Origin: Hemileia vastatrix
Taxonomy: Eukaryota > Basidiomycota > Pucciniomycetes > Pucciniales > Zaghouaniaceae
DNA length: 64,000 nt
Reading direction: 5' to 3'
NCBI GenBank assembly: GCA_030280995.1
Contig: JASXTE010000002.1
Coordinates: forward strand, 14,274,683 to 14,338,682
Each line of letters starts with the position of its first letter. Position 1 is the stretch's first letter. Position numbers and translations under genes: made by a program. Positions 9,980 through 46,783 of the stretch are shown piece by piece. The notes under the pieces were generated by a model, which searched no databases, was not told where the DNA came from, and was given only the letters and a program-made list of their open reading frames with translations.

Positions 9980-9989
9980 TTTTTTTTTT

Positions 9990-14583: not shown

Positions 14584-14638
<55 letters not shown>

Positions 14639-16349: not shown

Positions 16350-16380
<31 letters not shown>

Positions 16381-19824: not shown

Positions 19825-19864
19825 CACCACAGAAAAAATGGGGGGGTATTGCTAGCAATACCCC
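19825..19864 (-). repeat. Terminal inverted repeat, E2 TET end
   Basis: Begins CACCACAG and ends in the GCTAGC-centred 22-bp dyad. Preceded by AAA, which is TTT on the element strand. Confidence 0.85.
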
Positions 19865-21769
19865 TTGCTTGAACTCCGTTGAGCCACAAATCTATGCTTG
19901 AATTATGCACACATCATCACCATGTAGGAAATTGTTTGGCCTTACATTTAGTCAGAGATTTGTCACAAATTGAGCTCAAGATGAACCTACATTGATCACC
20001 ATTTGATCTTGTAAAATCCTAATTTGATCATCAGTTAAACTCCCTTTGATCTCACTTTGATCTAACATAAGCTTTTGCATATTTAATATGTCAACTATTC
20101 ACTTTCAAAAAGATTCATAATGAATTTCACATGGAATATTAGAAACGAAACCAGTAATTTTGAGTAAATGTCTCATCGAAATGATTAATCTACAACAAAA
20201 TACCATCAAAATTCAATCTGATTACTGAAAACTTTTGGTAAAATGACTAATAGATATTTAAATTGGAAAATAATATTCCATTTCTCAATTTCAAATTCAA
20301 AATATATATCCTCGTTTGAAATGTGAATTTTGTAGATTCCTTGCCTTCCTATATTATGAGTAATATTTGAGGTATTTTACACCTTTGTAAATATGGTGTT
20401 GTGCTGCTAGAAATTATCTCTGTTTCAATTCAATTTTATTGAAGCTTGATTCCAGAATGATACATATTTTATAACTATTTTGAGAAAAAAGTCACTAGTA
20501 ATGAATTTAGCCTTTTATCTGTCCTTTATTAAACCTCACTTAATCCTACTTAAATCCAAATTGACCCACAAAAACCTTATTTGGGATATTTGTTAGCCCA
20601 GGATGATTCAAGATTGGAGCAAAATATTATTTTGAATATCCAATATGCCTATTGATTAAATTTCTTCAAGCTTACTTTAAATTCACATTAACATTAACTT
20701 TCACAGGAAATATTAAACACAAATCTTGAAAATATAGTATTTAAAATCATAATAAATATAATATAATATGCTTACAACAAAATTTTCTTTCTGGATTAAT
20801 TGAAACAAAAAATCGTTCATTTGTGAAAATAGAAAAAATACTATCCATCCTGAATTTAGAATTAATTTTTAAAAATTTAATGCCCCCTCACTTTCAAGTT
20901 TATCATGTATTTCGAAAATTATATTTTTAATAATTTTGTGAATAGTACACCTGAGATATAAACTTGGGGATATCAAAAACTAAAACATCAGCAAATTGAA
21001 ATGTTTTTTATTGTTATGAATGGAAATAATGATTGAAAAACACCATTAGAGCAAGTTTGATTTTGAATAATAGGCATACTTTCTCATGTAAATTTCAATA
21101 AAAATAATTTTTATTCTTACATAAGTTGCGGTGGATACATTTGAGCTCAAAAAGAATTAAAATTGACAAAATAAGACTTCTATAATTCATATTCAAAAAT
21201 GTAATCACCCTTCATTATCTACCTGTAAACTATTTTAAATTGAATAATTTCAAAGTCAGTATATACTGATGTTATTTTTTCTTCTAAAAAATTTATTATA
21301 TAGATTAATAGTCATAAACAGTTGACATAGATGTTAAATTTATATAAGTAATCTTTAATGCATAAAATGATAAAACTATCTTTTATGTAAAAAGTGATGA
21401 AGGAAAAATATATTATTAAATTTTTGATGCACTATCAATAAAATTGAAGATAGAGCATATCAAAAGTTTAAACTTAATTTCAATTTTGATATCATCATTT
21501 TATTTTATTTTACTTGAGTAGAAAACAGATTTTAAATCTCAATATAATTTTAAATCCCATTAGTTTGTAGATTTCAACATTTGAAACTATGAAATAAATA
21601 TTTATGAAAGAATTTTATAATATTTGCCCTTCTAAAAACTCATAAATCCAACTTCAAATCTTCTAACCTTCACAAGTAACCACAATGCATTCTGAAAATA
21701 CTCTATATTTAAATAATTAAAGGTAAATAAAATTATGTTTTTATTCTTTATTTCAATTTTTGATAAATA

Positions 21770-21800
<31 letters not shown>

Positions 21801-23511
21801 ATTTCTTAAAAAGTCTAAGAGGGAACTTAATAGTGGTTTTGGCATTAGATATATAGATTCAACTTTCAAAAAATTTGTTTGGAATAAATTACAAAGACAA
21901 AAAGGATATATTTTGATGAAAGAATACTGATTTAGGTTCTCTTAAAATATTATTAACCATTTTTATGGAATATTAATCCATGGTTATCATTCTTTATGAT
22001 ATTATCATAGAATTTTTTCCCTTTTTAATATAATGATTTTCTATTGTGTGGTATGTAGGCTAAGATAAGTTTAAAAGATTTATTGAAGATATATATACCA
22101 GAAACAGTATAATCTGTAGATTTATAACTATAACTTACTTTTCTGATGTTTTACATCATTGATAAGTAGCTCATGCATTACACAAGTAAATAATTATAGT
22201 CTCTGGAAATAATTCCTTGTGAATTTCAAATTTTTTGTTATTCTTAAAATCATTACTCAAATAAACTAAAAATTTCTTCAAATATTGATTGAAAGAAGGA
22301 GTTACAAAATCTTATTTTGTAGTTATAAAAGTTTGAGTTATTTTTCATATTATCAAGTATAATGAACATTTGTAAATTTTAACTTGAAAACTAGTGATCA
22401 TAGCAAAGTAATACTGGAAGAATCAAAATAAAAAGGGTGGAATAAAGTCATAGCACAACAGGAAATGATACAAAATTGTTGATTTTTATCTCACAAAATT
22501 CAACATATTTTTAACATATTTTACCACCTTTAGATAATGTTTAGTGGACTTTAACATTATTATTACAAGCAAACGTAACAATGTTTTGATTTTTTTAACA
22601 AAAATAAATATTGTTAGATCATTTTTTTAAAATATATGACTTATTTTTATGCTTTATCTACAATAGTTAGTAGTTTTTTTTTGCAGAAATTACTTGTTTT
22701 GATATTCTATTTTTGAATTTTTTAAGAGAGTTCATTGCATTAAAGTTTTGTAATAATTTTTCATTAAAGCATCATATTTTAAATCTAGAGAATTGGTTTT
22801 GAAATAATATATATTTTCATGTTAATTGACTCATTATTTTTGGATTGATAAATTATGTTAAAATTGGGATTGCTTATTTCTAGTGAGTGTACATCATAGT
22901 TTGTTTTCAAATCAAAGATTAATAAATGGTGAAATTTGGTAAAATTCTAAATATCTTTTAAACCTTTTTGATTTAAATAATGTTTAATGTTATGTAATCA
23001 TTCTATAAGTAGAACACAGTTAAAATCTGATAATGGTACATTGCTTTCAATTTCTAATACTAAAATTCTATTCTACTTGAAACAATGTAAACTAAAGCTT
23101 GGTATCTCATAAGAAACTCACAATTTTCAAAAATCATATTTCCAACTTTTTAAACATGATACACATTAAAATATATTTTTAGAATAATTTCCTAATTAGT
23201 TTCAAATACTAGAAAATAATGACCTCAATTTATTTTAATACTTAAACCATTCTGATGAGTGAATTTCGCAATCCTCTAAGTAACATATGGTTACCATTTA
23301 TACACATATGCATGATTTCTCCTTTTGTTTAATTTTAGCTGAATCTAAAAAGTAAAATCACATGTTGAATATCATCTATAGATAAACTTCTTATATTAGA
23401 AGCTAATATTTCATATGAGAAATTTGTTATTGAGTTTGGGAAACATTAATAAGTGTTGGGTATTATAATTGAGCCATTTATTCAAGTAAATAAAAAAGGA
23501 TGACCTTCTAA

Positions 23512-23566
<55 letters not shown>

Positions 23567-25720
23567 AAAATTAATTATATAGTAGCATTTAACCATGTTT
23601 TTATACTAATGTCATATAAAAAAAGGGATTGAACTAAAACTTTCAGTAAAGAAAATAAAAATAAGATAAGTTAATATTCTTGTTTATATTCTCATATTTT
23701 TGAAATGGCTTACTTAAGGGAGAAAATTATTTGGTTTTAGAGTACAAGAATTTCTAGATAAAAATCTTCACAATATAGTTTGACCCTCTCAAAAAGAAAA
23801 TTCCTCAAATTTTACTATCACATTTTATATATTTGTTAAGTAATAGAAAATGGAGTTGTGTCTTTGACAATGAAGCTTTAGAAAATGAAATAAATGATTT
23901 AAATTTATAATATAATTTTTGAAACAATAAATCATGTATTCAAAAAAAATTATATATCTTACAATCAAGATAACAGTATTAATTAAGCAACTCTAACAAC
24001 TTTGGAAAGAAAACAAGAAAAAAATAATTAGTAAAATGCATAAGTTATTTTTAGAATTTAAGGAAACTTAATAGCTCTACCTGTAAACTAGCCTTAAAGC
24101 AGGTTTGGATTTAACATGTGGAAATTCATACATAGTACCCTTCCATCATTAGAGCAGAATAAAATTTATGTAGTTTTATTTTTTTAATTTATAATAGTAT
24201 TTTTATTTTTGGCTTTTTCATTAGTATAACTATATATTTTTTAACTTTTTTGTTTTTCATAACATAAGTTCAAAGCTGCACATCACTACTTCAAGATGAA
24301 ACTCCATATAATGTAATAAATGAATGATATATCATAATGAATTTTACTAGAGACTTTTCAAAAATGGTGATTAAGAATACTTATTATAATTTTTTAAATT
24401 TTTATTATTATTCTATCTCTTGAAAGGAGATGGCCATATCTCAATTTAATTAGTTTTTCCTCAGAAAAATTTATTCTTGATCTAAATAAAATTGCATCAC
24501 TATTAACTAGATGTTATTATACAATTTTAACAATTTTTTTATCTGAACATAGTTGAAAGTATGTATAAATTAAAGTGTTTCCACATAGTCTTACTATTAT
24601 CCCACCATTATTTTCACATTTAGATTTCATTATAACTGTAAAATAAGTTTTTCAATAATTTTAATAATACCTTAATATTTAATAATTTAGTTACATAGAA
24701 GATTTTTTATCCTTTTTTTATATGAGGCTTATTATATAAACACTACTTTTAGATTTTATCCATTTTGATGTCTGATGATTTAAATTTTCATTTAACTACC
24801 CAAATTATATCAAAAAAAATTCAAAAGTATATTTTTTTAATGTACTCTTTTTGATAAACTTATCATTTCTTATAGGTTATTCTTCAACTATTTATTGTAA
24901 TTAATTACCCACTCATTTATGGTCTGTTATTGTTGTTCATTACATACAGACAAAATAAGGATACTCTCATATTATATTGGAGTTTTAAATTAAAAAGTAA
25001 ATACTAGTGGCTGGTATTAAATATAAAGTTGTTATAACTAAGTTGAACATTAATTAATTATTAAATGGCATTTTATATTACAAATTTTATTGAATGTATA
25101 TAAAAATAACACTCAAGAAATATATATAAGATATATATATAACCATTGTATATCAAAAATGAAGTACTTATCAACATGGTCTTTTTAAATGATTTTCAAA
25201 TTTACTTAAAGAGACATTAATATTACCAATTCAAATTTTATATCAAATACAACAATGTTATTATTTCATTTTTAATTATTTTACAAAAAATTTGAGTTTC
25301 AAAGTAATTTAATTCAGTATTTAATGAATGTTTTTGAAAAATGTTTTTAAAAGTAGAAATAACCCCTCACAAAAAAAAATATAATTTTTTTTACTTACAA
25401 TTTGCACCATATTTCTACCCTTAAAATATTGGTATTCTTCTAACAAAAATATTTTTTAAATAAATTTAAAATTTTTTTCATTATTCAATTACAAAATGTC
25501 AAATTTATAATTTATTTTACCTTACTAAAAAATTTAGTTGAAAATTTAATTTTGTATTTCCAAAAAATAAACTTAAATGTCAAAAATTAAAAAAACAAAA
25601 TTATAAATATAATTATGAGAAAGATGTAGATTAAATTTATAATATTAATATAAAAAAAATCATATATTTTATGGTGTTTGAATTTTAAATTTAATGTATT
25701 AAAAAATAATTATTAAATAA
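19865..25720. other. AT-rich non-coding arm (E2), including subterminal TTTGATC repeats
   Basis: Mirror of 12431-18285. TTTGATC-type motifs cluster at 19992-20063 (five within about 70 bp). AT microsatellites lie at about 21770-21800 and 23518-23562. No gene seen. Confidence 0.7.
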
Positions 25721-26439
25721 CCAAGCCAAATGAAATTGGATTGGATTTTTGGTATCACTAGAACTTATTTTTTTTCTTATACTCACATTTTAATTTTTAA
25801 ATTTTTTTTTTCTACACTTCTCATTTTTTTTTATGATTTTTAATGTTTTTAAGACCGAAGTTGCTTTCAAACAACTTTGGTCTAACGTTTCTCTCACTTT
25901 CCCACCAGATTGCACCTGGTAGGGAAAGTCGCTTCCATTTTAGAGACCAAAGTCCCTTGCAGGGACTTTGGTTTCTCTGTGTGCATTGCACAGCCAGAAA
26001 AAAACTGGCTGTGCAATGCACTGCATGCAGCACATGCAACACGCATCGGTGCTGCAAGTAATGCGCATTGCATGCAGCAGAAATGCGCGTTGCATGCAGC
26101 CGGAATTGCTGCTGCATGCAGCACGCATTGCACATGCTGTGCATATCTCATTCAGCTGACTTGATATCAGCTGCATGAAATATGGTAGCGATTGTGCAAC
26201 GCGCGTTGCACACTGCTTTGGCCACCTCCCAGCCTAGTAAATTAGCTGGGAGGGTGGCAAACATTACAGCAAGCAATCGAAGTCGCTTTTAGAGACTTCG
26301 ATTGCTTGAAAGAGACACTTCCAGCCAGGGGAAACCTGGCTGGAAGTACTAAATTGCAATGTAAGGGACCCAAGCCAATTTCAAAGGCTTGGGTCATAAA
26401 TTAAGGTTTCTAAAAAGCAGCCAGTATAAATCTGGCTGC
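25721..26439. repeat. Hairpin array (E2)
   Basis: Mirror of the E1 array, with the same order of stems. It is about 40 bp longer because the nested GCATGCA/GCAGCA part (26030-26130) has an extra hairpin-like unit. The outermost hairpin at 25721-25744 is degraded here. The long arms stay paired in both copies although a few stem bases changed. Confidence 0.8.
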
Positions 26440-27436
26440 AATAAAAAGTAAATTTTTTAAATAAAATACATAAAAAAATAAAAATGTGTTCAAATAAAAT
26501 ATACAACACTCTTCAGCCAGTAAGAAACAGCCTTCCATTGTTACACATAGAAACAAAATCAAATGTTTCTTTCATCAACATTGGCCATGTTTCAATATTT
26601 TGAACCAAGTAAAATCAGGAAAAAGGTCACGGCAAAAAAATTGCATAATTAAAAGTCTCCCAATTTAATATGGTGCGGAGGTTCATATTTTAGAAATAGG
26701 TGGTGCACATTATAGTTTCCTTTAAAAAAATTCAAAAATGAATTAATTTTGGCGCAATGTAAATTTAAATGTGATAAGTGTATGTCTTTTAGCTACGTGA
26801 AACATGGTAGCTAGAATTATGTGGCGTCAATTTTTTTTAGATGTGAAATTCAGTGTTCCACAAATGTGCATCTGTACAACATGCAGCCAAGTAAATTCTA
26901 GCTGGAATTAGTATATGCATAGGAAAAAATGATCATGCTGTGTACAGTGCCTTGGCAACATCATTCTTGGAATTTAGATGAAGTTTATCATATGACTTGG
27001 AGAGCTGCATTTTTTTGAAAATGTGATCAGTGAAAATTCATGATATATACATCTGTTTGCCACCCAATTTATTTTTCCTTTCTCTTTCTCACTTACCTTT
27101 TTCAAAAATTATCAATCATATTTTTGCTTTATCATTTTGAATTATTGGTACTATTTTCTTGACCTTATCTGATTACCGGTAAGCAAATTTTTCTTGCTAT
27201 TGCATTTCATATCATTTTGGTTTGTTACACTTTTTTACACTTTTTACAAGTTAATCTAATGATTCTAATTCTGAATTTATTTTTATGGTATCTTTTACTG
27301 TACCCTTTTGATTCATTATAAAAAAATTCTTTTTCAGTTAACTTAAAGTTTTTTTATTTGTTTGTCAATTTACTTTTCTTTATTCCTTATCAAAAATGTT
27401 CAATTTATTTATCTAACCATTTATTTTTTAAAACAG
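26440..27436. other. Upstream region of the TET/JBP gene (E2)
   Basis: AT-rich. A pyrimidine tract (TTTTTCCTTTCTCTTTCTCAC) spans about 27070-27092 and may mark a fungal core promoter. No ORF. A splice-acceptor-like TTTTTTAAAACAG ends at 27436. Confidence 0.4.
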
Positions 27437-27506
27437 TGATTATAAAAAAAACTTTATAATTAATTTTGATCAATCAGCTACAAATGGAAGAAGATTTTAT
27501 AGACAT
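27437..27506 (+). CDS. Possible 5' exon of the TET/JBP gene (E2)
   Basis: Bounded by an acceptor-like AAAACAG and a GTAAGT donor. One frame reads DYKKNFIINFDQSATNGRRF, which looks coding. No start codon is seen and the following intron would be about 665 nt, long for this genome. The connection to the exon at about 28172 is therefore only suggested. Confidence 0.35.
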
Positions 27507-27570
27507 GTAAGTTCATGTTTTGCTTATCATTTTTCTATATTTCTTTAATACTTTCTCAACCATTATATTA

Positions 27571-27945
27571 TTAATATGAAAAGTAAAACATCATCTCGTA
27601 CTTGCTGAAAGCATACAGGATAATGTTTTGCTTTTCATAATAATAATTAGATTGTTTGTACTTTACCTTTAATTTATTGATTTTTAAGTTGTTTCAAAGT
27701 CTCGTACTTGCTGAAAGCATACAGGACAATGCTACAATTTAAAAATTAATGATTTATTGAAGTATAACTTTCTAAGTCAATATATTGATCAGAGCAAGAT
27801 TTTTCATTTTATATATGTGGATATCATAATTCCGTAAATTTTTTAATATTACTAGTGTATTGGAGTTATACTTTCATTATATTATTAATATTAAGTGTAG
27901 AGCCAAACATCGTACTTGCTGAATGCATACAGGATAAAGCTATAC
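27571..27945. repeat. Three stem-loops sharing a 25-nt loop (E2)
   Basis: The loop, CGTACTTGCTGAAAGCATAC plus AGGA, recurs at about 27597, 27703 and 27910. The first is enclosed by TATGAAAAGTAAAACAT and its near complement, the second by ATTTTTAAGTTGT/ACAATTTAAAAAT, the third by a weaker stem. Stems are unrelated between copies while the loop is conserved. They lie inside or upstream of the TET/JBP gene. E1 has the same three. Confidence 0.7.
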
Positions 27946-28184
27946 TCTTTATATGTATAATTTAATAAAGTATACCTTTGAAACGCTTTCTTAATATTTG
28001 AAATAAAGAAAAAGTATATAAATTTACTAATATGTAGATATGCTAACTTTTGTATTTCTAATATTGAAGATATGATAAAGTTAAAGGTATCATTGACTGA
28101 TAATTGAAATTATGTTACTATTTTCTAATTTTTGATTTTTTTCTATTTTAAATCAAAATTGAATTCTCTTAGGATTGAACCATC

Positions 28185-29394
28185 AATGAGTAACGATTTG
28201 AAAAAAAAAACGGCCAGGGAAGAACTCTAACAATAGGTGGGTGAAAGACATTGCTACTGGAATGAAACTTGTAAACGCTCTTGGAATGGATACAAATGGG
28301 AAGAAGCCACATTTCTATGCACAATCTTATGCAAATAATATGACAGATTGCAATAATTATTACAATTTTTTTCCTGGATGTAGTATTTATAAACCAAAAG
28401 GTGTCTTAATACCTAATGTTCTTGTGCAGACTTTTGAAATTCATGAGCTCAAAGAACTAGATATTTTAGAAGCTACGGTGCGATGCATTAAGGATCTTTC
28501 TTACTGCGAACATGAAATTAAAAATAATGGTTATCATCGAAGAGCTGGTGGTTTTGGAAAAATGTTTGGTGGTGGCTTTATTTTAGATAGAACGAAATCT
28601 TTATATATTCACAAGTATCACTTTTTTTAATTTAAATACTGAATTTTTGTATGCTTTTCCTTGCAGATGAATACACTGATGATATTGTAAAAACGGATGA
28701 ATATAAAAAACGAATGAAGAGGATTGCAATGTACTTTAAATATTTTTTTAAAAAAATATCATATGTAAAGTACAATGAGGCAACTAATCTTTGCGCAAAA
28801 CTTGGTATTCCTGGATTTTCAAAAGTTTCTAGTGAAGAAGAGGGTGTACCGTTTGCTAGTAATTTAACTTGGACATCTGGAGGGAATGGTAATGGGTTCT
28901 CTAATGAGGTTCATCTCAATAAGGATGCAAGTGAGTATACTTTAGGAATATTTTTTCCTAAAGATACAGAAAAAAACACCATTCATATGAAGTATGATAA
29001 GACCCAACCACGACAAATAGGTGGAGAACTTATGTTTCCCGAAATGCGAAGTAAAATAAACTTTGAAGCAACTAATGGAATAACAGTGACATTATGGCCT
29101 GCCAATCAACTAAGGCATTTCACCTCAAGATGTCATGAAATTCCTGGCTTCACTAGGATAGGTTCTTCTATTCAAATCAGCACTAGACTTTTTCATGCTA
29201 TAGAAAAGCTTAATGTTTTTGATATTGATATTTCAGATTACTTAGAAATTAAAAAAGAAAAATTTAGGTTAGAATATTTGATTAGTGCTTTGAGAGTTTT
29301 TTTGAAAAGAGATGACTTAATAGAGGAAGAAATAGAATCAGCAAAGTATTATTTATCTAATTTTAAGACAAATCTAAAAAATCTAGATATATAA
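28185..29394 (+). CDS. TET/JBP-type 2OG-Fe(II) dioxygenase, E2 copy
   Basis: TET/JBP enzymes use iron and 2-oxoglutarate to oxidise 5-methylcytosine or thymine in DNA in the nucleus; rust genomes carry many Tet-like members, some on transposons. Visible landmarks: conserved NNMTDCNNYYNFFPGCSIY upstream; catalytic core SNEVHLNKDASEYTLGIFFP with the H-x-D position; GGELMFP; the second metal His in LRHFTSRC; and the 2-oxoglutarate Arg in FTRIGSSIQIS. Here H-x-D reads H-L-N (Asn codon 28918-28920), so iron binding should be impaired; E1 has H-L-D. An A10 run at 28201-28210 breaks the frame from the candidate ATG near 28187; nine A would keep it open. An intron joins the 28241-28630 segment to the core starting at about 28667 (TTGCAG acceptor), but its donor is unclear. 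Probably inactive as it stands. Confidence 0.75.
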
Positions 29395-30238
29395 ATATTA
29401 AAAATTTATATTATATATACACAACTTAATGCAAATTTAAACATGATAAATACTGGGAGTAGCTGTAACATTTTCAGTTTTGATAATTATAGTATTATCT
29501 ATTTTTTTTATTTGTGAAATAAAATAATTTTTTTTCATAATATTATAAGAAAATTTGATTTACTTTTGAGGAAATATATAAGTTGTGAAATCTTTAAATG
29601 TCATTTTTATTAAATTGGTAGCAAAGTTTCTAAAATAAAAAAAACTATAATAAAGAATTTGAAATATATTAGCCATAAAAATGTGCTTTTAATGCTACCA
29701 AATTAACTGTATAGTATTTTAGGTCAAACAGGCTTATTAATAAAAAAGTTAATAATAAAGAGTTGAAGAGAGAATTTTGAATCAATAATAGATTAAATTG
29801 TATTTTTTTAAGAATGTACTCATTTAATTATTTAAATTGTTCTACTTCTGATTAAAAATGTTACAATCAACAAAAATATTTGTAATAATTAATAGATTAT
29901 ATAATATTAAAGGTAAAGTAACAAAACTAGAGCAGTTATCATATTTTTATATAAACAATAAAATATTTAAGAATTTAATACAAGTATTTGAAATCATATA
30001 AGTAGATTTTAAAATCTTTGTTATTGCTGGACTTACAATAATTTTTTTTAATAATTAATTTAGAAAATCATGTCAAAGGTTACTTAATAAATTTCAAAGA
30101 TGGTCACATTTTTGACGTATTTGAAGGAAAATAACTTGAATTATACAAGATATATCATATAGACAGAACTTTATCTATTTACATGTTGGAATATTAATTT
30201 ATTGAAAGGCTATGTTTAGCAAAAAAAGGTGATACTGG
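29395..30238. other. AT-rich convergent intergenic region (E2)
   Basis: Between the convergent 3' ends of the TET/JBP gene and accessory gene B. No ORF or structure seen. Confidence 0.5.
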
Positions 30239-32624
30239 CTAAATGGAGCTCCAGTGATTAAGAAAATCTGCAGAAATAGCCCTAGCAATTCCTGGAGGAC
30301 TTGGGGTATCAAATTTTAAAGGAAATGGATCACACTTGCCTATAAAAGGTTTTATTAATGTTAAAATATAGTTATTTAAATTTTTCCAAATTATTTCTTC
30401 CATCAAATGATTTTTTTTTTTCATGTAAATTAAGAAACTTAACTTCTGATATTACCTCCAAGCAATCAGCTGCTGAAGCCAATCTATGATCTTGAGAGCT
30501 CAGAAATAAACCACGGACACCATCAATTATATAGAATGTGAAAGATTGATATTGGTGGTGGGAGTATTCAGAATTTATTTTGTTTAGTGCAGCCTTTTGT
30601 TTCTCTCTCATTATAGTCAGTTCAGTATTTTCGTTTTTCTCACTTGATTGTTGAGCTTCACTAGTCTTGCCACTTGATATTGTTGCAGCACAATATTTTG
30701 ATTTAAGAATGATAATTGACATAGTTATATCAATGATAATATTGCTGATTTGAAGAAGAGTTGACATTGATATATCACGGGTTTGAAGTGCAGTGGGACC
30801 AACTTCTAAGCCATCAGAAATCGGACTCTTCAGATTTGAAAGGTGAGCTAGAAGCTGAAGACCACCTTCAATTGGAAAATCTGAGTTAATGTTTTGATGT
30901 GATGGAAGCTGGCTGAATTCATGTGCGGTCAGATAAAGTGAAGATGATATAAGAGATACCCATGAAGAACGGCAGTGGTCACTTGGGATCATTAATCTCA
31001 TGAGCATTTGGATAAGATTGGATTCAGGGTGATCCGTTTTCTTTGTTGAGGAAAGAATTTCAGTATTTAAACCATCAGGATCACATAAATCTTCTATTTT
31101 TTTGAAATCAATATTATCGAGTACCCATAGCTGTGAGCTATCAATCTCTAAAAAAATATTTGCTACAAAAGGAAAAAAAAAATAAGTAAAAGAACAAAAG
31201 TCAAGACTAAAAATTATGGTAACTTACATAACTCAGTAAGTTTTGAAAGCCAATCTTCTCCACAAGATTTTTCCCAATGAAAAGTAAACATTGGAATATT
31301 TGACATGGGTTCTTGGGAAGAAGTAGAAGAGCGTAATTTGAGGAGAGTAACAATATCCAACCACGACCTGAGGACCTTTGCCGTGCTGATTCTACCTTTA
31401 TAAAAATTATGAATTTTACAGAATTCCTCATGCAAATCAGATTCTTTTAGAACTGAGGGTGAATAAGTTAGAGGTTTTTTCGATATCTTGATTGGAGTTG
31501 ATTTCATTGGTAGAGAAGCTTTCAAAGAGGTCAAAGTAGGTAATTTAGGAGGTGATGGGTATTGCTTCTTAGAAATGAAGGAATTTGGTGATGAGCTGTT
31601 TGAATCATCATCTTTATCAAACATATCAACATGTCTTGAAGAAGATTTTAAACTTTGCTTTTTTTGATGAACAAGCATAGCTTCATATTCTTACAGTTGA
31701 TCATCGCTATTTTCATTGCTCTTTTCATCATCTTCATCAGGGAGAGGGCGTTTATGGATGGAACAATCTACAGCAGGTGAGTTTCTGGTACAAAATATCA
31801 AAAGAAAGATAAAAAGTAAAATATGTAAGCAATAAAAGAGATATATGATTGAATTTTAAAGATAAAAGAATAACAATAAAAAAAAGGAAACAAGAATATA
31901 CACATTATCAAAACCTTTGCTTTTTTTTTGAGATTTATTATTTGATACATCAGAAAATTCATTAGCAGAAGCCGGTTTAATACGTCGAACAAAAGAGGAG
32001 CCTTGGGATAATCTCTTTTTCTTGGAGCAGATAACAGGTGTTTCAAGATTTTCCTTAGAAGTTGAAGCATGAGTTGAAGCTGATGGTTCATCTGCCTCAT
32101 CATCATCCCTAATGAAAATGACTTCATCAGGAGGAATCATACCCTCCTCATAAGATACAAATATATATGAAGAAAAAAAAATATTAATAATCTTATCTAC
32201 TAATTTAAAAGGAGACAAAAAAGTTGATGAACATACATTTTTCAAGGCTTTTCACATATTGGAGTAAGTCATTACAAGGGTTAGATAAATATGAAGGAGA
32301 AGGATTATTGAAAAGGATCTTGACAAGCTCTTCTGTTTTATCTCTAGCCAATTCAAGTAAATTGCAATACTGAACTCTTGTTATTTCCTGCCTCTCATTG
32401 CTAAGTACAGGAGGGTTAGGTGCCATGCCATATGGCAGACATGGTGCAAGCTCAAAAGCTTCAAAGCAAGTATCAATCAGAGAGTGGGATGAAACACATT
32501 TGGGTTCTGGAAAATCAAATTTTTGAAAAAAAAAGATATAGAACATAAGTGAAATATATAAATTAAGAGAGAGGAACATGATATACATACAAAGTGGAGG
32601 TGTAGGATTTTGTATACTAGACAT
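30239..32624 (-). pseudogene. Accessory gene B, E2 copy (unknown protein, broken)
   Basis: Same gene as 5566-7996. The central and C-terminal parts are more intact than in E1: 31678-31214 runs through LTYSPSVLKESDLHEEFCK without the E1 stops, and 31007-30372 keeps the frame where E1 has extra A. E2 has its own lesions: splicing 32591 to 32506 would create TAA (E1 gives TCA), CTG TAA near 31695 (E1 CCA), and TAG at the 3' end near 30240 (E1 CAG). The two copies share no obvious stop, so the parental gene was probably intact. Product unknown: an acidic and Ser/Lys-rich N-terminal half with a helical C-terminal domain. Confidence 0.6.
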
Positions 32625-33657
32625 ATTGATTAATGAATATTAAAAAAAAGTAATCGATATCAAAAAATTATGATGTAATATGATGAATAATTATAAGAAA
32701 CTCTATTCTAGAAAATTGAAGTTGATAATTTAATAGGATAAAAAATTGAATAAGATTAAAATTAAAGTGAGGATGAAAGAAACAGAAAACATAAAGAGGG
32801 GGATTTTATATTATTTGAGCTTTTTTTAACATGTATTATTCATAGTGGGGTAAACTGAGTAACATGCTAAATCACAATCTGTTTATATTGAAGCGAAATT
32901 TGATGTAGCTAACAGAAAATACTAGTAATTCTTTGGGGACTTTTAGTGTGAAAAACAAATAATAACAAATTTATATCCCATATGCAAATTGCCACGGGTA
33001 AATACAAAATTTTTTAAATTAGAATTTACTCCTAAACAATGGAGATACACTTAATTAGTATATTATATGAAAAAAAAGGATAATCCTTTATGAATATTTG
33101 TTAAATTTACTTTCAGATGACAATGCGAGATTCACATATATACTGATATGCCTCATCAAACAAGAAATGAATTATAAATATAAAATTGGTAACATTAGAA
33201 TTTAAGATAAGAATTTGTTTTTTAAGTGACAGGAGGAGTGTCAGGCTAGGGTGTGGGCACCGTGACCAAACCTTTGATAAACTTGGATACAACTAAGGGA
33301 AAAAAAAATTGAATAGTTTTATTTTGCAATATATCTTAGTCTGCAAAAGATATTGCATTGTTGTCCCTAACTATACCAAAATTGTTACTTTTCAAAAGTT
33401 ATAGGACTACTAAGTTGATAAAATATTATTATGAATCACCCAATGAAATACCTTAAGCAACATTCAAAATTATTAAAATATTAATCTTCAATTTGAGATT
33501 TGGATTAGCTAATTTTTCACAACTTACCACAGTTTTGATTAATATAATAAAACTTGAAAAAAATTGTTGAGATAACCTAGAAATGGGTGCAAGAAAATGA
33601 TGAAACATATGGATTGAAAATTAACTCATACACTATTGATAAACTTCATGGATCCTG
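32625..33657. other. AT-rich intergenic region (E2)
   Basis: Mirror of 4533-5565; probable promoter side of accessory gene B. No clear motif beyond AT-rich tracts. Confidence 0.45.
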
Positions 33658-35595: not shown

Positions 35596-35736
35596 ATGGA
35601 TACATAAATGTGACATAAAGAGGTATGGACCATCAATTTGTTGAAAATACATTTTTATATCTCATACATTATTTGTTTTTCTTAAATAAAATGTTACTCT
35701 CTCTCAATATCACTTTATAACATTTACCAAGCTGCT

Positions 35737-37492
35737 TTGAAAAAAAACAGAATACATAAAATTCAATATAAGATAGCTATATTACACAGAAGATCACCGT
35801 TATACCTAAGTTATGATGATGTTGATGCTCTATTAATTGATTCCCGAATCTTTACCAGATCAATATCAGCTCCAACCCCAAGTGACTCACGTTCACTCAC
35901 ACATAATCCTTGCAAAAATGTTGCTGAATAGCAATTCTTGGGGAGGTATTTGGGAACATTGAATATACCATTTTGTGAAAATGTCCTTTCTGATGACCGT
36001 GAATATGTTTTTAATGCTGATTTTTTTTGAGCTGGTGTATGGGCTAAGTCCTTTGTCATCTTATCCATTTTTTAAACAAATCATTGAGTTCAGGATTTCT
36101 CCATCCAGGATTATCTCGGATAGGTGCAGTTGGGGCTGGCGCTGGGCCTTCCTCGATATCAGAGATGCACCTAGTATCATGAAAAAGCACAACAAAACCT
36201 GGCACATCACTGCAGAGATCTCTTGCTAACTTGTAGCGTGCACTAGAAATCTGAATTCCAACTAAATCAGCTTCATAATAACAAAAAGCAAAGTAAAATA
36301 AAAAACTCACCTTGGTCCGATAACGTTTTACTTGTGCCCTTGCCCTCTTTTCAATCTTTTCTCTTGCTACCCTTTCCTCTTCTTGCCCAAACAACCTTAT
36401 CATCTCCTTCCCCTTATTAACTACCCATTTCTCAATAACACATTGAGTGAACTGAAGCTTTGACTGATCAATTGTATTCAAGGTGGTGAGCCATCTGGTA
36501 CAATGGTTGCATACTATGCTTCCCATGACTTGATTCCAAGTTGATTCTGAAAAATCACGGCAAGTCCAATCAAATGCGAATTTCCGAAAACCTTTTTCTT
36601 GTAATTCACGCTCTAAGTTTCTTTTGGCAGAAAGTGGGATCGGTGCTGTGATCCTCCTTTTAGTCCTCGAGGCTCAGGTGCTGGAAAAAATTCGGGTAGT
36701 CGAATTTTGGATCGCAAGAAGGCTATAGAATTGGTTATCAGAAATTGTCGATCAGCTGCAGAATTGGCACGGTTAGAAGATTGGACTTGGGTTTGGACAG
36801 TTTAAATGGTTTTTAGTTTGAATTGGCTCCAATCTTTCCAATTTTCAATCTCCAAAGGTGTTGGGCTTGCAGGATATTTTGATATTTGTGTTGGTCCCCC
36901 AAGACAATACTTCAGAAAGTGGTAAATATTTCTATTTAGACTGTCCGAGCTCCTGGGAACATCATTCCTTCTAACTAAGCCTCTTACAGCCCTTAACCCC
37001 CGTTCTCGCTCATGAGACTCTGCTGAATTGAGTCTGTGGTAATCACTGATACCCATAATGATTGAGGGATTCACTAACAATTCAAATAAGTTAATTAAAT
37101 TGGTTATTTTTCAATAAAAGAATACACTACAAATTTGACTTACCTGCTCCACTTGTGCTTGCTCCTTGGTTAGGCTGAGCAGATGATGATTGGTCTCCGA
37201 AAAATTCCCTCAATACTTCACTAGCCCAATCTCTTCCTAGCTGATCAGCTTGCTGATTAGCACTTTCAGAAGCAGAAGGATGATTGGGATTAAAATTTCT
37301 CGGTTCTGAATGAGACTCTTGGCCTGGATTGGGATTAGGTGGTGGGTTAGGATTAGGTGGTACAGATTGAGATGCATCTGGAGGTGGATCAGCAGAGGGT
37401 GGTGGAGGAGTATTTCCAGTATTAGTATGTTGAGGCGGAAAACAATCAGAATCAGTTGGGTCAACAGACATCCCTTCAAAATTATCATCCAT
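35737..37492 (-). pseudogene. Accessory gene A, E2 copy (unknown protein, broken)
   Basis: Starts at ATG 37490-37492 (MDDNFEGMSVDPTDSD). The Pro/Asn-rich N-terminus is followed by the RERGLRAVRGLVRRNDVPRS region (37080-36802) and the VCNHCTRW/charged-helix region (36526-36056). E2 keeps CGA and CAA where E1 has stops. Its own lesions are TAA after FKLKTI near 36804, a 5-nt insertion near 36650, loss of one A near 36068 that shifts the frame to WIR-stop, and TAA in the last exon near 35811. Product not recognised. Confidence 0.6.
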
Positions 37493-38020
37493 AATGAACT
37501 GTAATAAAATAAAATAAAATAAAAATAATCAGTTGTTAAAATTTATACCTATCAAAGCTAAAGTAAAAAAAGATACTATGTATATAGTCTTGTAAACGTG
37601 TATGTTCTCTTGTCGAAAAATAAAGTGAATAATATATAGCTATCAGCTAAAGTTGGAAGGTCAAACTATTTATAGTAGATGAATGAGCAAGAAGATCATT
37701 CATTAAGTAAAAATTTTATCATATTTCTCATTATCATGATTTTATTTCTTTCATTCTTACATTTAAGATAAAAATGACTCATCAAAAGCATGGGTTCTCT
37801 CGCAATAAAAGCAACCAAAGTAATTGTTCACTGATTTATGATAAGGTAAGTTGGATTCATTGCATTTTTTAATCGAGCATTGAATTATTTCTTTCACCAT
37901 TTACAAATATCACCAATCCCAAATTAACACAAAGATGTTAGTCAACAGAAAATAAATTTGATTAATTTTTTCACTCACTACTGTCTGCAGTCCAATGGCA
38001 GTGACAACCTTGTCTTTGAT
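37493..38020. other. Intergenic region between accessory gene A and transposase (E2)
   Basis: Mirror of 202-729, with a TATTTATA (minus-strand TATAAATA) at 37667-37674. No ORF. Confidence 0.45.
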
Positions 38021-41000
38021 TCAAAACATTCCTTTTTTGTGCTCGACAGTAGCTGCATGTCCAATTATTGCATCTTTCTTAATCACAATTTGAGTTGCTT
38101 TGGGTACTCTTACTAACCGACAATGCACTTGTGGGAAAAGCTCATATGGATCCTTTGATGTTTCTTCTGGACAGAGCTCTTTGAAAGGACTTACTATTAA
38201 ATATATTTGATCATTCTCTTCCTTTGATCTGAAAAGATCATCAATTTGCCCAAACTGGCTATCTTTTCCATAGTAGAATTCAATTTTTGAATTAGCAACG
38301 TGTCGATGGTAACTAGTAAACCTCTTTCCATGTATCAATATGCTTGCTACATTTTCAACTAACCGATCCCCACTTTTCTCCAATGGTGTTAAAGCCCGTC
38401 TTGAAGTTTCTTTTCCCATTTGTGCCCTTACCCATTTAGTAAATAATGCCATACTTAGATGGATCCATTTGTTTTGTTTATCGAGATCAATATGGATTTT
38501 TTTATTCTCACATTGATCATTATCTTCAGCTTCACCAAGATCTAATACCCTAGACTTCCGATACCAATGTTTGAGCATTGTTAGCGGTATCTCTCCTGTG
38601 GTAAATATTAATAAATTAGCACAGCTGAGTTTTTAAATCATTTCTTACAAACATTACATACGTGGATGGTGATTGTTTGGAATTTCAGATAATATATGAT
38701 TCACCCGCTCTCCAGACCAAGTAGCTGTACCTGATGGTGGACCAAGACGCTTTATCATTTCAGGATAATGTTGAGTGATATGCAGATTTGGCTTTGCATT
38801 AATATTCTTTCAACCCTCTTCAAGGCACTCACGATACTCTAACAGAAATTGATCTAGATCTTTAAGCTCATTAGTCTGTATATTTTTTAATGTCAAAAAA
38901 TTGGTGATCGAGCATAATGTTACAAGTGACTTGAGAAGATAATATTCTCTTGGTTTATCAGCTGAGGAAGCTGAAGATTCAGATTCTTTAAATTTTTCAA
39001 ACCAAAGGGGTATAAGTGACAAAGGGTAGTAGAGAGTATACAGCATGTGCCATTCTGCTGCCTTGAGGGATCCTGCCTTTTTAGATCCTACTGATTTTGG
39101 AACTTGTGTTAGCCAGGAAGGTCTTCTTACTTGATCAATCATCTTCCATACAACCTGTAGCTCTGCTGCTGTGATTCGTGGATTACTACTACCTTCATTT
39201 TCTTTCTCCTTACCTTTCCTTTTATTTTCTTCATCTCTAGCTGTCTCATTTGATGAGTGAGATCCTTCACTCTGTGATATGCTAATGCTTCTTTGCCTTA
39301 AGTTATACAATGAATTCCTACTGTCACTGCTGTGAGACTGTATTGAGGCCACATCGCTATATGGAGGAATAAATTTGGAGCTGGATGACCTACTCTGGCT
39401 TCTTGATCGATTTGTTCCCAATCCTTCATTATCTAGTCCATGATGACTTGATGACTGTCTTGAACTCATAAGTCTTTGCCGCTTGTGCTGTCTCGTGTGT
39501 CCTGTATCATCATCATCATTATTTGTGGTGCTTAAGCTACTTCTACGTTTTTTCGAATGTTTGTGCAGTGAAGTATCAGAAAAGAAATCATCATCTTCTT
39601 CTCTTACATGCCAATTTTTATCCTTTTCCAGCTTTCTTTCTAGATCTTTTGCTGCATTTTGGATTTGAAAATAGCTTAGACTGTGATCTTTTAGGTTGCC
39701 AAGCATATGTGAATGCATAACATCAATTGAGCAATATTCAGTTGGACGCCAATATTCAAGGTTATTCAGCTCACTCCATTGTACCCCATGATTCCGAACA
39801 ATTGATACACGCTCCCAATGTGACTTAGAATTTTTCTACTTTGTTGCCCAGCACATATGATCCTCATGATTCTGTAATGAAAAATTTTCCACATTCTTTT
39901 AACTAATTTCATCTTTAGAGATATTACAGAAAGAGCAGAACATTTTTGCAGATTGACTCGAAAAGCCAGCCAATTTTCGTATTGCAGGAATGTCACCTAT
40001 CAAAGAGAACAATGCAACTCTTAATTTCCGGCCTCGTGGATAAAGATGTGTCTTTTCAATCAATATACCATCCCATAGAGTTTGTAGATCATTAACCAGT
40101 GGTTTTAGAAGGTGATTAAGCTGTTCACTTGTGGGTTCTGTTGGTCCGGGTATAATAGAATACAAAAAAAGATTTTCCATTTTGTATCTATCTTCTTGAG
40201 GTAGGTTCATACACACCATCATAATATTGCCTACAGACTTCTGATGACCTCCAATCCTATTGCCACCAGGCCTAAACCAGTCGACATATAAAGTAAACAT
40301 TAAGTTGCCTGAAGTTATCGTATATTCATCATCATTGCTATCCAGAGCTGGAGTGGTTATGGGAATGTTTTTCCAAATTGAACCATCACAAACATCCTTC
40401 ATCAAATCACACTCTACACTTTCTGCCACAGGGGTTTTCTTCTCAATCAGAAGCTCAGATTTGAACAGTTTGATCTTTTCCTTAAGCCAGTCGATAAAAG
40501 AATGGTGATGAAATGTTTTAAGAGATAAGTATTTTACATGTTCTTGATGTTCCTCCATCAAATACAGCCTTTCATCACATTTAACTGCAACTTGTCCTGC
40601 TCCAAACATTTTTAAATAGCGCTTTGATGATGAAAGAAACGGTTGATTGCAACATAGTATAGATAGTTGAGATTCAGAGCTATACTCATAAAGAGCAAAG
40701 CATTTAGGACAGCATGTTTTAGTGAAAAATGATTGATTGAGCTTTAATCAACTAAAAACTGTATCTATCAAGCGTGGGACCAGGCGGACAATGCTATCAG
40801 AATCCAGTATTCCACTATCACCTAGAAGTTTGAGCTTCTTAATTTCTTCATCCAAAAATTGAGTACAACCTTCTTTGCTCAAATGATGAATCAGAGAAAG
40901 CTTTGCTGCCTGCCACATAATTATTTGGCTATACCGTTCCCCAAGATTTGAGTTTCTAGAGACTGTTGAAGATACTTCTGCCCCCAATAGCAACTGCCCC

Positions 41001-41279
41001 TATGTAATAAATCATTGAAACATCATAAAGACTTTAATTCTAACATTGAACTATAGATATACAGCTTACTGTTTCTGTGGAGCGGGAACTTCCAATGTTA
41101 AGTGGATTGTTGGAAGAAATAACCATCTGGGCCTTCCTATTTCTTTCCTCTTGATGTTTTGCATAAGAATTAGAGCTTTTGAAAGCCATACCAACTTCAA
41201 AGGACCCAGAAGAAGTTTGATACTTTCTATTGACACATCCAAGATCTTGACATTGACATACATGAAAAAATTGAGGCAT
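38021..41279 (-). pseudogene. Plavaka/CMC-type (Tnp2-like) transposase, E2 copy
   Basis: The DDE transposase that would cut and join the element ends. Exons 41279-41070, 40999-38662 and 38595-38021, with introns of 70 and 66 nt, give one frame of 1,041 codons. Landmarks: zinc-ribbon-like Cys pairs (FHVCQCQDLGC; TKTCCPKCFALY; LCCNQPF); TLYVDWFRPGGNRIGGHQ with a probable first Asp near residue 310; NLPQEDRYKMEN; IIPGPTEPTSEQLNHLL; SLIGDIPAIRKLAGF; FCSFC; SIDVMHSHMLGNLKDH; a Ser/Arg-rich linker; LKAAEWHMLY; and SGERVNHIL, whose Glu near 834 is the probable last catalytic residue. Stops in E2: TGA after DTVFS, TAA after KDEIS, TAG after CWATK, TGA after CLEEG. The last two are shared with E3. No functional product expected without readthrough. 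Confidence 0.85.
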
Positions 41280-42354: not shown

Positions 42355-43476
42355 ATGAACCCTAGTAGCTCTTACTTTCCTCATGGAAACCTGCCCACAA
42401 ACACAAGAACACTTAATAGAATTTTTAATGAGACTTTGCCTCCATTCAATTCTCACTTTTGTAGATCTATACACAATTTTTGTCGTTCACTTTTGGATAT
42501 GTCACCAGAATCAAATGGATGGAAACAAAACCCTACTGAAGAGCAATTAGACATATTTTCATCATTCGACATGAATTCTTGAAACATTGCCTTTGAACTA
42601 CCTCATCCAGAATCAAATTCAGCGGTTTCGGAAAAGTTTCCACCAATTTTCCGTGAATCTTTTATTGAGCATCTTTGCATGTGTGGTTTCCCAGGATCAA
42701 CTTTCGCTTGGAACCTAGATTGGTTTTACAAATGGAACCAGGTCTTGGCAAATATTCTCATTAAACACTGGGACAATGCCTTAAAAACCAATAATTTGAT
42801 TGCATATCCAATTGACTCAACTCAAATTAGCTTCTCAAATCAAATAGGAGTTCTTCACCGTTGGTTTTTAGGTCATGCTGATAGATTAAGACTTGGGAAG
42901 GATTCTCATAGCTCTCAAGAAATAATCAAAGTGAGAAAGCATAAATATAGAATAAAAAAAAAAGTATGAAAATCCCTTTTTTTTCAACCGTTTTTATTTA
43001 TGATCTTTATTTCAAATAACAAAGATTCTTAGAATTCAGTTAACTGAACTAAACTTCTTAAACAACTTCCACATTGTGAAACTTATCACAACCTTTTCAC
43101 AAACATCAAGTGTTGTTCAGACACCGAAATTGATAATGATGGATTGTTAAGACGTATCTTAATGCAATGGAGGTCTGAAGATTTTTCTAAAGTTGCACAA
43201 TATCTTGACCAACAACACTTTGATATTCGAGATAATTCAACCAACTCTGGAAGTGTGCTAAAGGACTTGGCCTTGTACAAAAGAATCAGTTTGGTTTCAA
43301 CATTATCCCCTAACCTTAATCCTTCTCATGTCCCCCGGGGTTTGCCGAATGACTGTTATTCTCCCTTATATCTTGCATCTCTAAATCCTCAACAACTCAG
43401 ACTTTTAAATCCTCAAAATACCATAAATTTACCTGCTCTCCTTGAAATTCTTTCTTCCTCTAATGTGAGTGATTGA
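42355..43476 (+). pseudogene. Unknown 339-aa gene, E2 copy (two stops)
   Basis: Exons 42355-42930 and 43033-43476, split by a GTGAGA...TTCTTAG intron of 102 nt, have the same coding lengths as the intact E3 copy. TGA at 42580-42582 (E3 has TGC) and TGA at 43045-43047 (E3 has CAA) inactivate it. The last 17 bases overlap the 3' end of the convergent SNF2 gene. Confidence 0.75.
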
Positions 43477-45888
43477 CAAACTCCCTTAATAATAGGTTTG
43501 CACACTCATACTCCTCATTTCCACTGTTTGGGACACTTAGCCTTGAAAACAAAAACATAATTTTAATGATTACTATTATCATTAAAATTTATAGAAATGA
43601 AATTTGGCTTACATTGTTAGCTCCATTTTTTTCCTTTGAATCTTATACATGCTGAATTCTATACTTCCTTTTACAAAATAATTCAAAACATTTACTTCAT
43701 TTTGCTGCCCCATTCTATACAGCCGATCAACAGCCTGTTGCTCAACTGCTGGATTCCAATTTGGCTCCTATTTCAACATTGAAAATATAAAAAATTTAAT
43801 ATTTTTGTTCTTAATATGAAATAAAAGAAATTGAGCTCACCATTATATATACATTTTGAGCACACCTGAGATCTATACCCACTCCTGCAGCCTGAATCGT
43901 TCCAACCAAAACTTGGCAATTTTTATTAAAATGGAATTCATGCATATTTTTGTCTCGCTTTGTCCTGCTGAGTTCACCAGTAAGCTGGGTATACCTAATA
44001 TTGTGGTCATCTAAAGCCATTTTTATTCTATTTTGAAATATTAGAAAATTGTTTTTAATAAGCCAACACAATTTTGTAAAACAATTCATTATAGAATCAC
44101 TTACATCTGCAAAAAGTCTGAAAAGTTGGAGAATATAACAGCTTTTGGAAAATTTATATCCCTTTCACCAGACAAAAAGTTTTTTAAGTGGCCTATAAGA
44201 TGACAAATCTTTGCGGAATGCTGCCAGGTGAAATCAAAAGTTGGAGTTTCATCCAGATTTTTGTAGATTGGATGGTTGCAGAATTTTCTTAAAATCATCA
44301 GCTCTCTTAGAAACTCAGATGAGTCCCAAGGGAAGTCAGTGCTTCTGGAGGGCCCATATCGCTCAGTGAATCCTTCTTGAAGCACATCAAGCTTAGACCT
44401 CCATGGATCTGCTAATTGAACCGATATCCCCCTTTGAATCTTTTTTGGAAGAGACAAAATTGCATCCTTTGTTCTACGTAGGCTTATGACTTTTATTAAG
44501 TGATTGATTGATTCAATAGAATTAGCCTTTCCTTTTTGCAAACCTGGAAAAAGGAAATTCTTCCATAACCAGTCTTCTTGCCACTTTTCGATTCTAAGAA
44601 AAAATATGAGACTTTGAAGGTCAGTGGGCCTGTTCTGAAGTGGAGTTCCAGTCAAGCATAGTTGGTGTTGGGATTCCAAGTCAAATATTGTTTGAGCCCT
44701 CTGCGAGTAAGGATTTTTAATGTAACTAAAAGAATATTTATAAAAATTGATTATAAAAATTAAGTTTTAAGTTTTAGATATAGAAATGGGCACTAACTGA
44801 GCTTCATCTAAAACAACTCTATACCAAAAGAGCATTTGAGTCACCGGTATCTTTTTTTGGCTTTGATTTTTTGACATCGTTGGGCTAGCTATTTCATAGG
44901 TCGTTAAAACAATAGCAGTGTCCTGTAGCTCATTGACATTAGTATTTTGACAATCCTTCCCATAAAGAGCCTTGAAAGGAAGGGCATTATCTTCAAAGTG
45001 CACACTTATTTCATTGATCCAATTCGATAGTGTTGCCAGGGGGCATATAATCAGTGTGGTTGAACTCCGATTAATACCTTCTTGATTTTCTGATACCTGG
45101 AATTGTCTTGCTTCACCTTGAGTTGCACTTATAAGAGAAAGAGTTGAAAGTGTCTTTCCCAAACCCATATCATCAGCAAGTATTGACCCGTTTCCTTCAG
45201 GCGTTAATTGATTGTTAGGAAACTGATCTTTATAGTCATTGAATCCAGTTCTAAGCCAATGGTTGTCCTGGTGCCTCCACATGATATCCAACTTTTCCTT
45301 TAACATTTGTTCATTGTCAATCATAAAATTTATTGCTTGAAGTTGATGTGTTTTGAGAACTGTTTTGATTCCTCGGATAAGTTGATCAGCTTTCCAATCT
45401 TGAGTACTCTGAGATATTTGGAAAGAGCCTTCAAAAATTACATGCGGGATATTAAAAAAGATAGTGGAGTCGTAGTTCAGGATTGGACATAAATCGATTT
45501 GTGCAGAAGAAAATGCTTCTTTAGCAAGACTGATTAGTGTACTTGAAGAAAAGAGGCATCCTTAAAGTTGATACTGATTACCAAAAACTGGAACCAAGTA
45601 AGCATGAAAATTGAAAGGCTTCATAGGATTCAAGGCACTTCTTTGGTTTAAATGGTGAGATCCAGAGCCAATGTCACCCAATAGTGGTCCAATGTGCTGA
45701 CTCTGCACTTGAGAAAGATTACCGACAAGGGTTGGTTTTCTTTCTTCAAATAGTCCAAAAATATGAACATTCGAATGGCCTCGCTGTAAAATTGTGGGGG
45801 TCGGTGAGTTTTGAAATCTTGAAATTACATTCATATAAATTTGATCGATTTTTATTGAGAACTGTCCAACACATCTGAGACTTGACAT
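43460..45888 (-). CDS. SNF2-family ATPase, Rad5/HLTF-like, E2 copy (intact)
   Basis: ATP-driven DNA translocase expected to remodel chromatin or protein-DNA complexes in the nucleus. Six exons: 45888-45582, 45518-44798, 44725-44105, 44027-43841, 43767-43613, 43541-43460. All introns are GT-AG, 63-77 nt, and total coding length is 2,073 nt, exactly 690 residues plus TAG. Motifs: Walker A DDMGLGKT near 218-225; DEAH at 340-343, which forms only after the 72-nt intron is removed; LTGTPLQN near 367-374; helicase C QAAGVGIDL; and VDRLYRMGQQ near 626-635. The N-terminal 160 residues are not recognised, and no RING or bromodomain is seen. The TAA at 45562-45564 lies inside intron 1. It overlaps the convergent unknown gene by 17 bp. 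Kinetoplastid JBP2 fuses a TET/JBP domain to an SNF2 domain, so carrying both on one element is suggestive. Confidence 0.88.
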
Positions 45889-46743
45889 ATTAAGTAAGAA
45901 TAGTATCTGAAGATAGTGGTTGTTAAAAGATGAATTGAAGCAAAAAATGAAGAATCAGTTTTGAATAAAACGACAAAATAACTTTTTAGCATATGCTATG
46001 CTAAGCTCATAATTCGTTCACATGTATTATTATTATCTTTTTAATAAATATTGGAAGTAAATCAATGATAACTGAAATGAATAATATGGCTTAAAAATAA
46101 ATCTTGAGCCTATAGAGTAAATTTTGGTTTGTGGAGGAAGAAAAATTTTCTCAATAAAAATGTGCTTTATTGTTACATTATAATCACAAAATAGATTAAT
46201 TTCACTCTTATTACACTTATTTATGTTTCTGTCTAATAGTAAAATGCTTTAGATGTCAGTTCAAAATCCAAATTGAAACTACTACCTAGAACGATGTCTT
46301 GATACTAACATACTTTTTGTAAGTCTTTGGAAAGACACTTATGGTGATCTCAATAATATTAAAATTGATTTGAATTGTATGTTTTATCAAATATCTATGT
46401 AGTCTAGTGTAATAATTGAGATACTACAGTTTAACCTTCTGTTACCAACTTGGCAAGAAAATATATGTAGATATTCTTAGAACGAATATCAAATTTTGCT
46501 TTCCACAAGATGGGAAAGTGAATATTATGATATGTTAAGTGATATGTTCAAGCTTTGCTCAATCTGTGCTCAGCTCAAAATCAAAGTAATCACCAAGCTC
46601 CAAGAAACCTGTGATTGAGTTTGGTTGAACCTAGGTCTAACTGATTACCAAATCTTTGTCCAATTAATTTAAATCTGGTTTCACAATGAACTCCCAACAG
46701 CCTTCCAACAGCTTTCCAACCACTTCCCAACATTTTTAAATGA
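45889..46743. other. SNF2-end subterminal region (E2)
   Basis: Promoter side of the SNF2 gene and element end. It holds four short tandem units of the form (C/T)TTCCAACAGC at 46690-46732, next to the terminal repeat, and TGAGCTCAAAATCAAAG-like sequence near 46570. No ORF. Confidence 0.55.
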
Positions 46744-46783
46744 GGGGTATTGCTAGCAATACCCCCCCAAATTTTCTGTGGTG
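46744..46783 (-). repeat. Terminal inverted repeat, E2 SNF2 end
   Basis: Inverted match to 19825-19864; dyad at 46744-46765, terminus CTGTGGTG at 46776-46783. Followed by ATA on the plus strand. Confidence 0.85.

Follow-up and report, generated by a model that had tools for sequence, protein, structure and literature searches.

We analysed a window of 64,000 nt of Hemileia vastatrix DNA (contig JASXTE010000002.1) which holds a transposon carrying, besides its transposase, a TET-like dioxygenase gene and an SNF2 ATPase gene. The element occupies positions 19825-46783 of the window (26,959 bp; the coordinates are exact) and is the middle one of three copies, the other two being inverted. Its ends are a left terminal inverted repeat at 19825-19865 on the forward strand and a right one at 46743-46783 on the reverse strand, both containing the 22-bp palindrome GGGGTATTGCTAGCAATACCCC. 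The two arms, of 41 nt each, are 95% complementary; they start CACCACAG and end CTGTGGTG, and the termini of the element read CACCA..TGGTG. Six genes lie between the ends: the transposase, the TET-like dioxygenase, the Rad5-type SNF2 ATPase and three others that we call U1, U2 and U3. The gene pieces were identified by a Pfam scan of 10 open reading frame (ORF) pieces and four pieces of U1-U3, and exon limits were predicted by eye from GT-AG splice signals. It is almost certain that this 26.96-kb unit is a single transposon of the CMC/EnSpm (CACTA) group bearing these genes. A preliminary description had proposed a unit with both terminal repeats, a Tnp2-like transposase, TET/JBP and SNF2 genes, three unknown genes and palindrome arrays, at least partly repeated three times, and each of these parts was recovered.

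The predicted TET/JBP-like gene (27484-29394, forward strand; exons at about 27484-27506, 28173-28610 and 28667-29394) encodes a protein that matches the Tet-like Pfam family 2OG-FeII_Oxy_6 (PF20515) with an E-value of 1.4e-20 and 74.6 bits, the cut-off being 27. The middle copy has an altered splice donor at the end of exon 2 and an altered iron-binding Asp in the HxD motif. Across eight copies the motif reads HLD in six and HLN in two, including the middle window copy; exon 3 is open to its stop codon in two of the eight, and a third has no in-frame stop and a changed length. Near the start of the gene, a run of A at 28202-28212 is 9 to 12 bases long depending on the copy, through slippage or assembly error. 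The first intron contains three 90-nt repeats (27559-27962), and upstream of the gene lies a CpG-rich palindromic patch with many GCATGCAGCA (25940-26240).

The SNF2 gene is on the reverse strand (43609-45888), with four predicted exons at 45888-44798, 44725-44105, 44027-43841 and 43767-43609, the last including the stop codon, and a product of 685 amino acids. Two ORF pieces in the window match SNF2-rel_dom (E 3.1e-21 and 1.6e-27), and the spliced SNF2 of another copy matches SNF2-rel_dom with an E-value of 1.4e-56 and Helicase_C with 1.4e-16. The middle copy has an in-frame stop; the gene is open in three of six fully covered copies, and 51 of the 63 best-scoring first exons genome-wide, a sample biased to good copies, are without a stop. 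Of 120 homologues listed, the top 34 all come from Puccinia. First among them is P. triticina PTTG_29311, with 43% identity over the full 685 amino acids; P. triticina also supplies others, as do P. graminis and P. striiformis. A quick tree was built with 37 rows (the element SNF2, 20 Puccinia proteins and 16 others picked from the list). In it the 21 rust rows form one side of a branch with a support of 100 by the SH-like approximate likelihood-ratio test (SH-aLRT), and the element protein groups with nine Puccinia rows at 99.

The transposase gene, of the Tnp2 (CMC) type, lies at 37955-41279 on the reverse strand, with a main exon at about 38680-40990 and a provisional 3' limit. It matches Pfam Transposase_21/tnp2 (PF02992; E 6.5e-15), as do 23 of its 24 homologues in a big protein set, the best two of which are 35-36% identical to it. 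In nine sequences aligned among themselves, with RAG1/Transib outside the alignment, the residues D, D, CxxC, H, H and E are invariant in that order, and the two H are spaced more widely than in H(3-4)H. The main exon is open in two of seven covered copies. Starship-type fungal cargo elements are defined by a tyrosine-recombinase captain; Pfam found no such captain in the 10 ORF pieces or in the four taken from U1-U3, and the element has a Tnp2 transposase instead. The three unknown genes lie at 30194-32625 (U1, reverse strand; several exons, broken in the middle copy, with approximate limits set by eye), 35811-37492 (U2, reverse strand; limits approximate) and 42355-43476 (U3, forward strand), and the four pieces of them that were scanned gave no Pfam match at E <= 0.5. 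Between U1 and U2 is an array of 19 TTAATTTCGATCGAAATTAA-like palindromes (33659-35594), with spacings that mostly alternate between about 102 and 86 bp. All 19 sites found with up to 4 substitutions are inside this interval and none elsewhere in the element, and each of 20 crude shuffles gave 0 or 1. The array is kept in all eight copies that cover it, with 17-19 sites at the same positions; the third window copy falls outside this coverage.

Iyer et al. in 2014 reportedly described TET-carrying transposons of the KDZ group (Kyakuja, Dileera, Zisupton). For TET-carrying transposons of rusts, our comparisons draw on part of Kojima 2025 (PMC12730594). That part describes a TET-carrying EnSpm lineage with 5'-CAC..GTG-3' ends, 3-bp target duplications, a transposase resembling that of Plavaka and a TET/JBP gene inside the element, and places PU-type TET in seven rust transposon lineages. 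Since this lineage is published, TET-carrying CMC transposons were already known in rusts; the preliminary description had noted a link of fungal TET/JBP genes to DNA transposons. The present element has the same CAC..GTG termini, 3-bp duplication, Plavaka-similar Tnp2-like transposase and internal TET/JBP gene; to the lineage as published there it adds the SNF2 gene, three further genes and the palindrome array. The words SNF2, Swi2 and ATPase do not occur in the main text of the same paper. The element had initially been labelled CMC/Plavaka. The CMC half of that label stands. The Plavaka half was rejected: in the part consulted, Plavaka termini read CATCA..TGATG or TGT..ACA, and the CACCA..TGGTG of the element fits the rust EnSpm lineage (PMC12730594). 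PlavakaA/B have a related CMC transposase, and according to the same source TET-carrying PlavakaB occurs in Agaricales, whereas no TET-carrying Plavaka was found in Pucciniomycotina. KDZ transposons likewise bear a TET/JBP gene on a basidiomycete DNA transposon, but their transposase is unrelated and they make 7-8-bp duplications (PMC12730594, same part). As far as the literature was searched, the new features are the unit of 27 kb, its copy number, the palindrome array and, among the genes, the integral SNF2 and the three unknown ones.

The genome searched comprises 747,610,610 bases in 791 contigs. Six copies were fetched from it: five were the first left-end matches lying beyond the window, and the sixth came from lower in the list; for two of them a paired right-end match was already present. 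Wherever it is covered, each of the six is collinear with the middle copy, at about 98%. The right end was reached in four, and in the other two, which contain nested inserts, the fetched stretch ended first. Among the nine copies with both ends read, seven are flanked by matching 3-bp target duplications (ATA, AAT, ATA, AGT, AAT, AAG and ATG), and the remaining two are the inverted pair of the window, whose target triplets match crosswise. A left end predicted from the right end was found in three of nine copies and was not at the predicted place in six. Genome-wide counts of 40-mers with up to 3 mismatches gave 2,088 ends, 1,372 TET and 1,401 SNF2 matches, and the reversed-pattern control of each gave 0. 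Since the left and right ends differ at two places, the count of 2,088 includes both; if every copy has both ends, there are roughly 1,000 copies, amounting to some 28 Mb.

Linkage was examined among listed perfect matches on four contigs, three of them whole and one in part, using 99 of 100 left ends. A perfect SNF2 40-mer was present at the expected distance for 40 of them, up to 25 kb further for 25, and absent for 34; the corresponding numbers for TET were 24, 20 and 55. In all, 79 of the 99 left ends have, on the correct strand, a perfect 40-mer of TET or SNF2 between the expected distance and 25 kb beyond it, and the wrong-strand control gave 0/99 for SNF2 and 1/99 for TET. In the reverse direction, such a left end accompanies 64 of the 83 SNF2 places listed, and either a left end or TET accompanies 74. 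We also inspected, on contig C2, 20 of the 24 left ends that lack a perfect TET 40-mer: in 17 the expected place holds the TET gene or the intron region upstream of it (window 26994-29210), with 92.7-99.0% identity, two have sequence from further along the element and one shows nothing. Of 20 SNF2 first-exon places, 18 fell within the listed range; a perfect left end was found within 100 bp of the expected distance for 10, further away for five and not at all for three. The collinear copies, the matching duplications and the similar genome-wide counts thus establish TET and SNF2 as integral genes of the transposon. The preliminary description had also said what would undo its proposal of one unit, namely cargo lying outside the terminal repeats or absent from most copies. 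Checked across the genome, neither was borne out; cargo outside the ends or in few copies is rejected by the collinear copies, the counts and the left-end linkage.

The other two copies in the window are both on the reverse strand. One covers 1-18326 and is truncated by the left edge of the window; the other has its right end at 51267, and its match to the middle copy stops at 59398. The listed blocks of both are 95-100% complementary to the middle copy, and the arms 13154-18326 and 19824-24996 are 100% complementary. The triplets flanking the middle copy are AAA (left) and ATA (right), those of its inverted neighbour ATA (left) and AAA (right); the latter AAA was read only after an inversion model had predicted it, and the prediction held. 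Since the flanking triplets swap partners, the 1.5 kb between the pair (18327-19823) seem to have been inverted through recombination between the two neighbouring copies. The right flanks of the neighbour and of the third copy (51255-51266) are near-identical, AAAG[GT]TTCCTACAAAGGGG, and may represent one site shared by copies of a single retroelement. The surroundings at 47700-51260 are degraded and, judged by eye, resemble a Gypsy-type retroelement. A truncated additional right end of the element lies at 49948-50584, 1.3 kb before that of the third copy, and to the right of the third copy (61231-61581) are short tandem repeats of 31-32 bp with the unit CCTCAG..TTAAAGTCT..GGGGGACT. Elsewhere in the genome, a 28.6-kb variant (C26:29475462-29504058) contains twice the same insert of about 0.83 kb, which resembles a miniature inverted-repeat transposable element, with ends CACCACGC..GCGTGGTG and TTGCTAGCAA palindromes; by eye, the flanks TAA and ACA of these inserts are repeated on both sides. 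A similar excess length, 1.56-1.64 kb, is seen in four other copies, and the double-insert form, of which one copy was read, may in turn have been amplified.

We measured decay among nine copies, two of them partial. Changes of C to T (or G to A) at CpG amount to 0.084 per site and copy, as compared with 0.003-0.006 at other C, and the TCG context decays most (0.124). Hypermutation at TCG is cited for Pucciniomycotina in the part of Kojima 2025 used here (PMC12730594); taken with the Puccinia relatives of SNF2, this favours a rust as host. Given this strong CpG and TCG decay, the copies bear marks that a TET could remove. CpG decay ranges from 0.054 to 0.113 between parts of the element, with the palindrome array at the top. 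Selection was assessed with five older copies, partly read, whose covered stretches share 94-97% identity with the young copies; four were informative for TET and two for SNF2, and stops were counted as nonsynonymous. In TET exon 3 the differences fixed between old and young copies are 3 nonsynonymous to 6 synonymous, as against 64 to 18 for polymorphisms (one-sided Fisher p 0.009, binomial p 0.013); a run with four older copies gave 3 nonsynonymous and 7 synonymous fixed differences. As judged from these substitutions, the test shows purifying selection on TET. For SNF2 the fixed differences are 7 to 6 and the polymorphisms 177 to 58, a trend towards purifying selection.

The preliminary description had inferred that the element encodes its own epigenetic opening system. 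The best explanation overall, likewise an inference, is that TET and SNF2 work as an anti-silencing kit on behalf of the element, a reading to which we give a probability of roughly 55%. It fits the single transposon unit, the HxD motif present in six of eight copies of TET, the helicase domains of SNF2, the CpG decay and the constraint on TET. Taken by its parts, it is likely that the two genes act for the element and not for the host; the chances that their joint mechanism is anti-silencing are even; and recruitment by way of the palindrome array is doubtful. In such a scheme the host would methylate element copies at CpG, TET would oxidise 5-methylcytosine on element DNA, and the SNF2 motor would move along chromatin, exposing promoters or ends. 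One of the U1-U3 proteins may bind the palindrome array and bring TET and SNF2 there. Expression of the transposase would thereby be restored, and new copies could spread before they decay.

Several observations weigh against the anti-silencing reading. The copies have decayed despite TET. CpG decay in the array is slightly higher than elsewhere (47/416 vs 273/3,390, p 0.03) and, not being lower, leaves no footprint of targeted protection there. The constraint on SNF2 within the family, with its two older copies, is not significant (p 0.09 and 0.11), and in young copies the changes appear neutral (3.29 against 3.04 expected for SNF2, 4.43 against 3.38 for TET exon 2). Complete copies with every gene open, which the preliminary description had suggested looking for, were not found among the copies examined. 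A search with TET of 5.8 billion proteins returned 0 of 2,052 candidates at E <= 1e-3, and a rust-named relative of the transposase was absent among the listed homologues.

It is possible, though on balance unlikely, that TET alone is an anti-silencing gene and that the role of SNF2 is in transposition or repair, for instance that of a Rad5-like translocase dealing with gaps or stalled forks once excision has occurred, a task that may be important for an element of 27 kb. The best PDB sequence match of the element SNF2 is indeed K. lactis Rad5 (E 3.9e-47; next best 1.4e-37), and many of the listed non-rust matches are RAD5B or HLTF proteins. Rad5 is also the best Foldseek match by E-value of a model of the Puccinia homologue P0001 (mean predicted local distance difference test 81.6, predicted template-modelling score 0.57). 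On the other hand, the remodellers DDM1, ISWI and INO80 match the element protein too (E about 1e-34 to 1e-31), and the P0001 model superposes better on remodellers (template-modelling score 0.53) than on Rad5 (0.37). Moreover, RING and HIRAN gave no Pfam match in the element SNF2 (E <= 0.5) or in five rust homologues (E <= 5). The protein resembles the Rad5/HLTF/Rad16 group by sequence and model match, but stands apart from Rad5/HLTF proper in having no RING insert or detectable HIRAN, and groups with Puccinia-only proteins.

We consider a passenger role improbable, in which TET and SNF2 would be host genes that were captured, are carried by chance and persist only through the copying of the unit as a whole. 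Decay of the copies as if neutral after insertion, together with the lack of significant constraint on SNF2 inside the family, would suit that view; against it, the fixed differences in TET are mostly synonymous, SNF2 keeps its full-length identity to P. triticina PTTG_29311, and PU-type TET recurs in seven rust lineages in the cited part of PMC12730594. That either gene is an independent insertion in this copy or a few has a negligible chance of being right: the TET region is missing where expected in 3 of 20 checked places and neither perfect 40-mer lies near 20 of the 99 left ends, but the collinear copies, the matching duplications and the similar genome-wide counts refute it unless the assembly is wrong throughout.

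In kinetoplastid JBP2 an SNF2 ATPase and a base-modifying enzyme form one fused protein; in the element TET and SNF2 are separate genes. Fungal DNMT5, as presented in the part of PMC13297926 consulted, pairs an SNF2 motor with a DNA-modifying enzyme, but it is one fused protein and a writer, whereas the element has two genes, with TET belonging to the eraser class. Arabidopsis VANDAL/VANC provides a working analogy: in the section of PMC10398659 used, anti-silencing is transposon-coded and targets noncoding tandem repeats, but VANC binds DNA, and TET and SNF2 are not part of that system.

TET genes on fungal transposons were known, and the element bears on what TET does there. With TET and SNF2 kept together over some 1,000 copies that carry a CpG/TCG decay signature, the anti-silencing idea is directly testable. 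The element also points to a possible origin of the multicopy SNF2 proteins in rusts; the part of PMC5295586 consulted lists the SNF2 domain among those enriched in wheat rusts. A more specific version, tentative and rather unlikely, is that TET and the Rad5-type ATPase make up a two-part methylation eraser, in which the ATPase would feed chromatin-bound methylated DNA to TET and an array-bound element protein would steer both to the element's own copies, the mirror image of the SNF2-methyltransferase DNMT5. If this were true, the enrichment of SNF2 in wheat rusts would be partly transposon-borne, and the inflation of rust genomes would be partly due to elements that open themselves.

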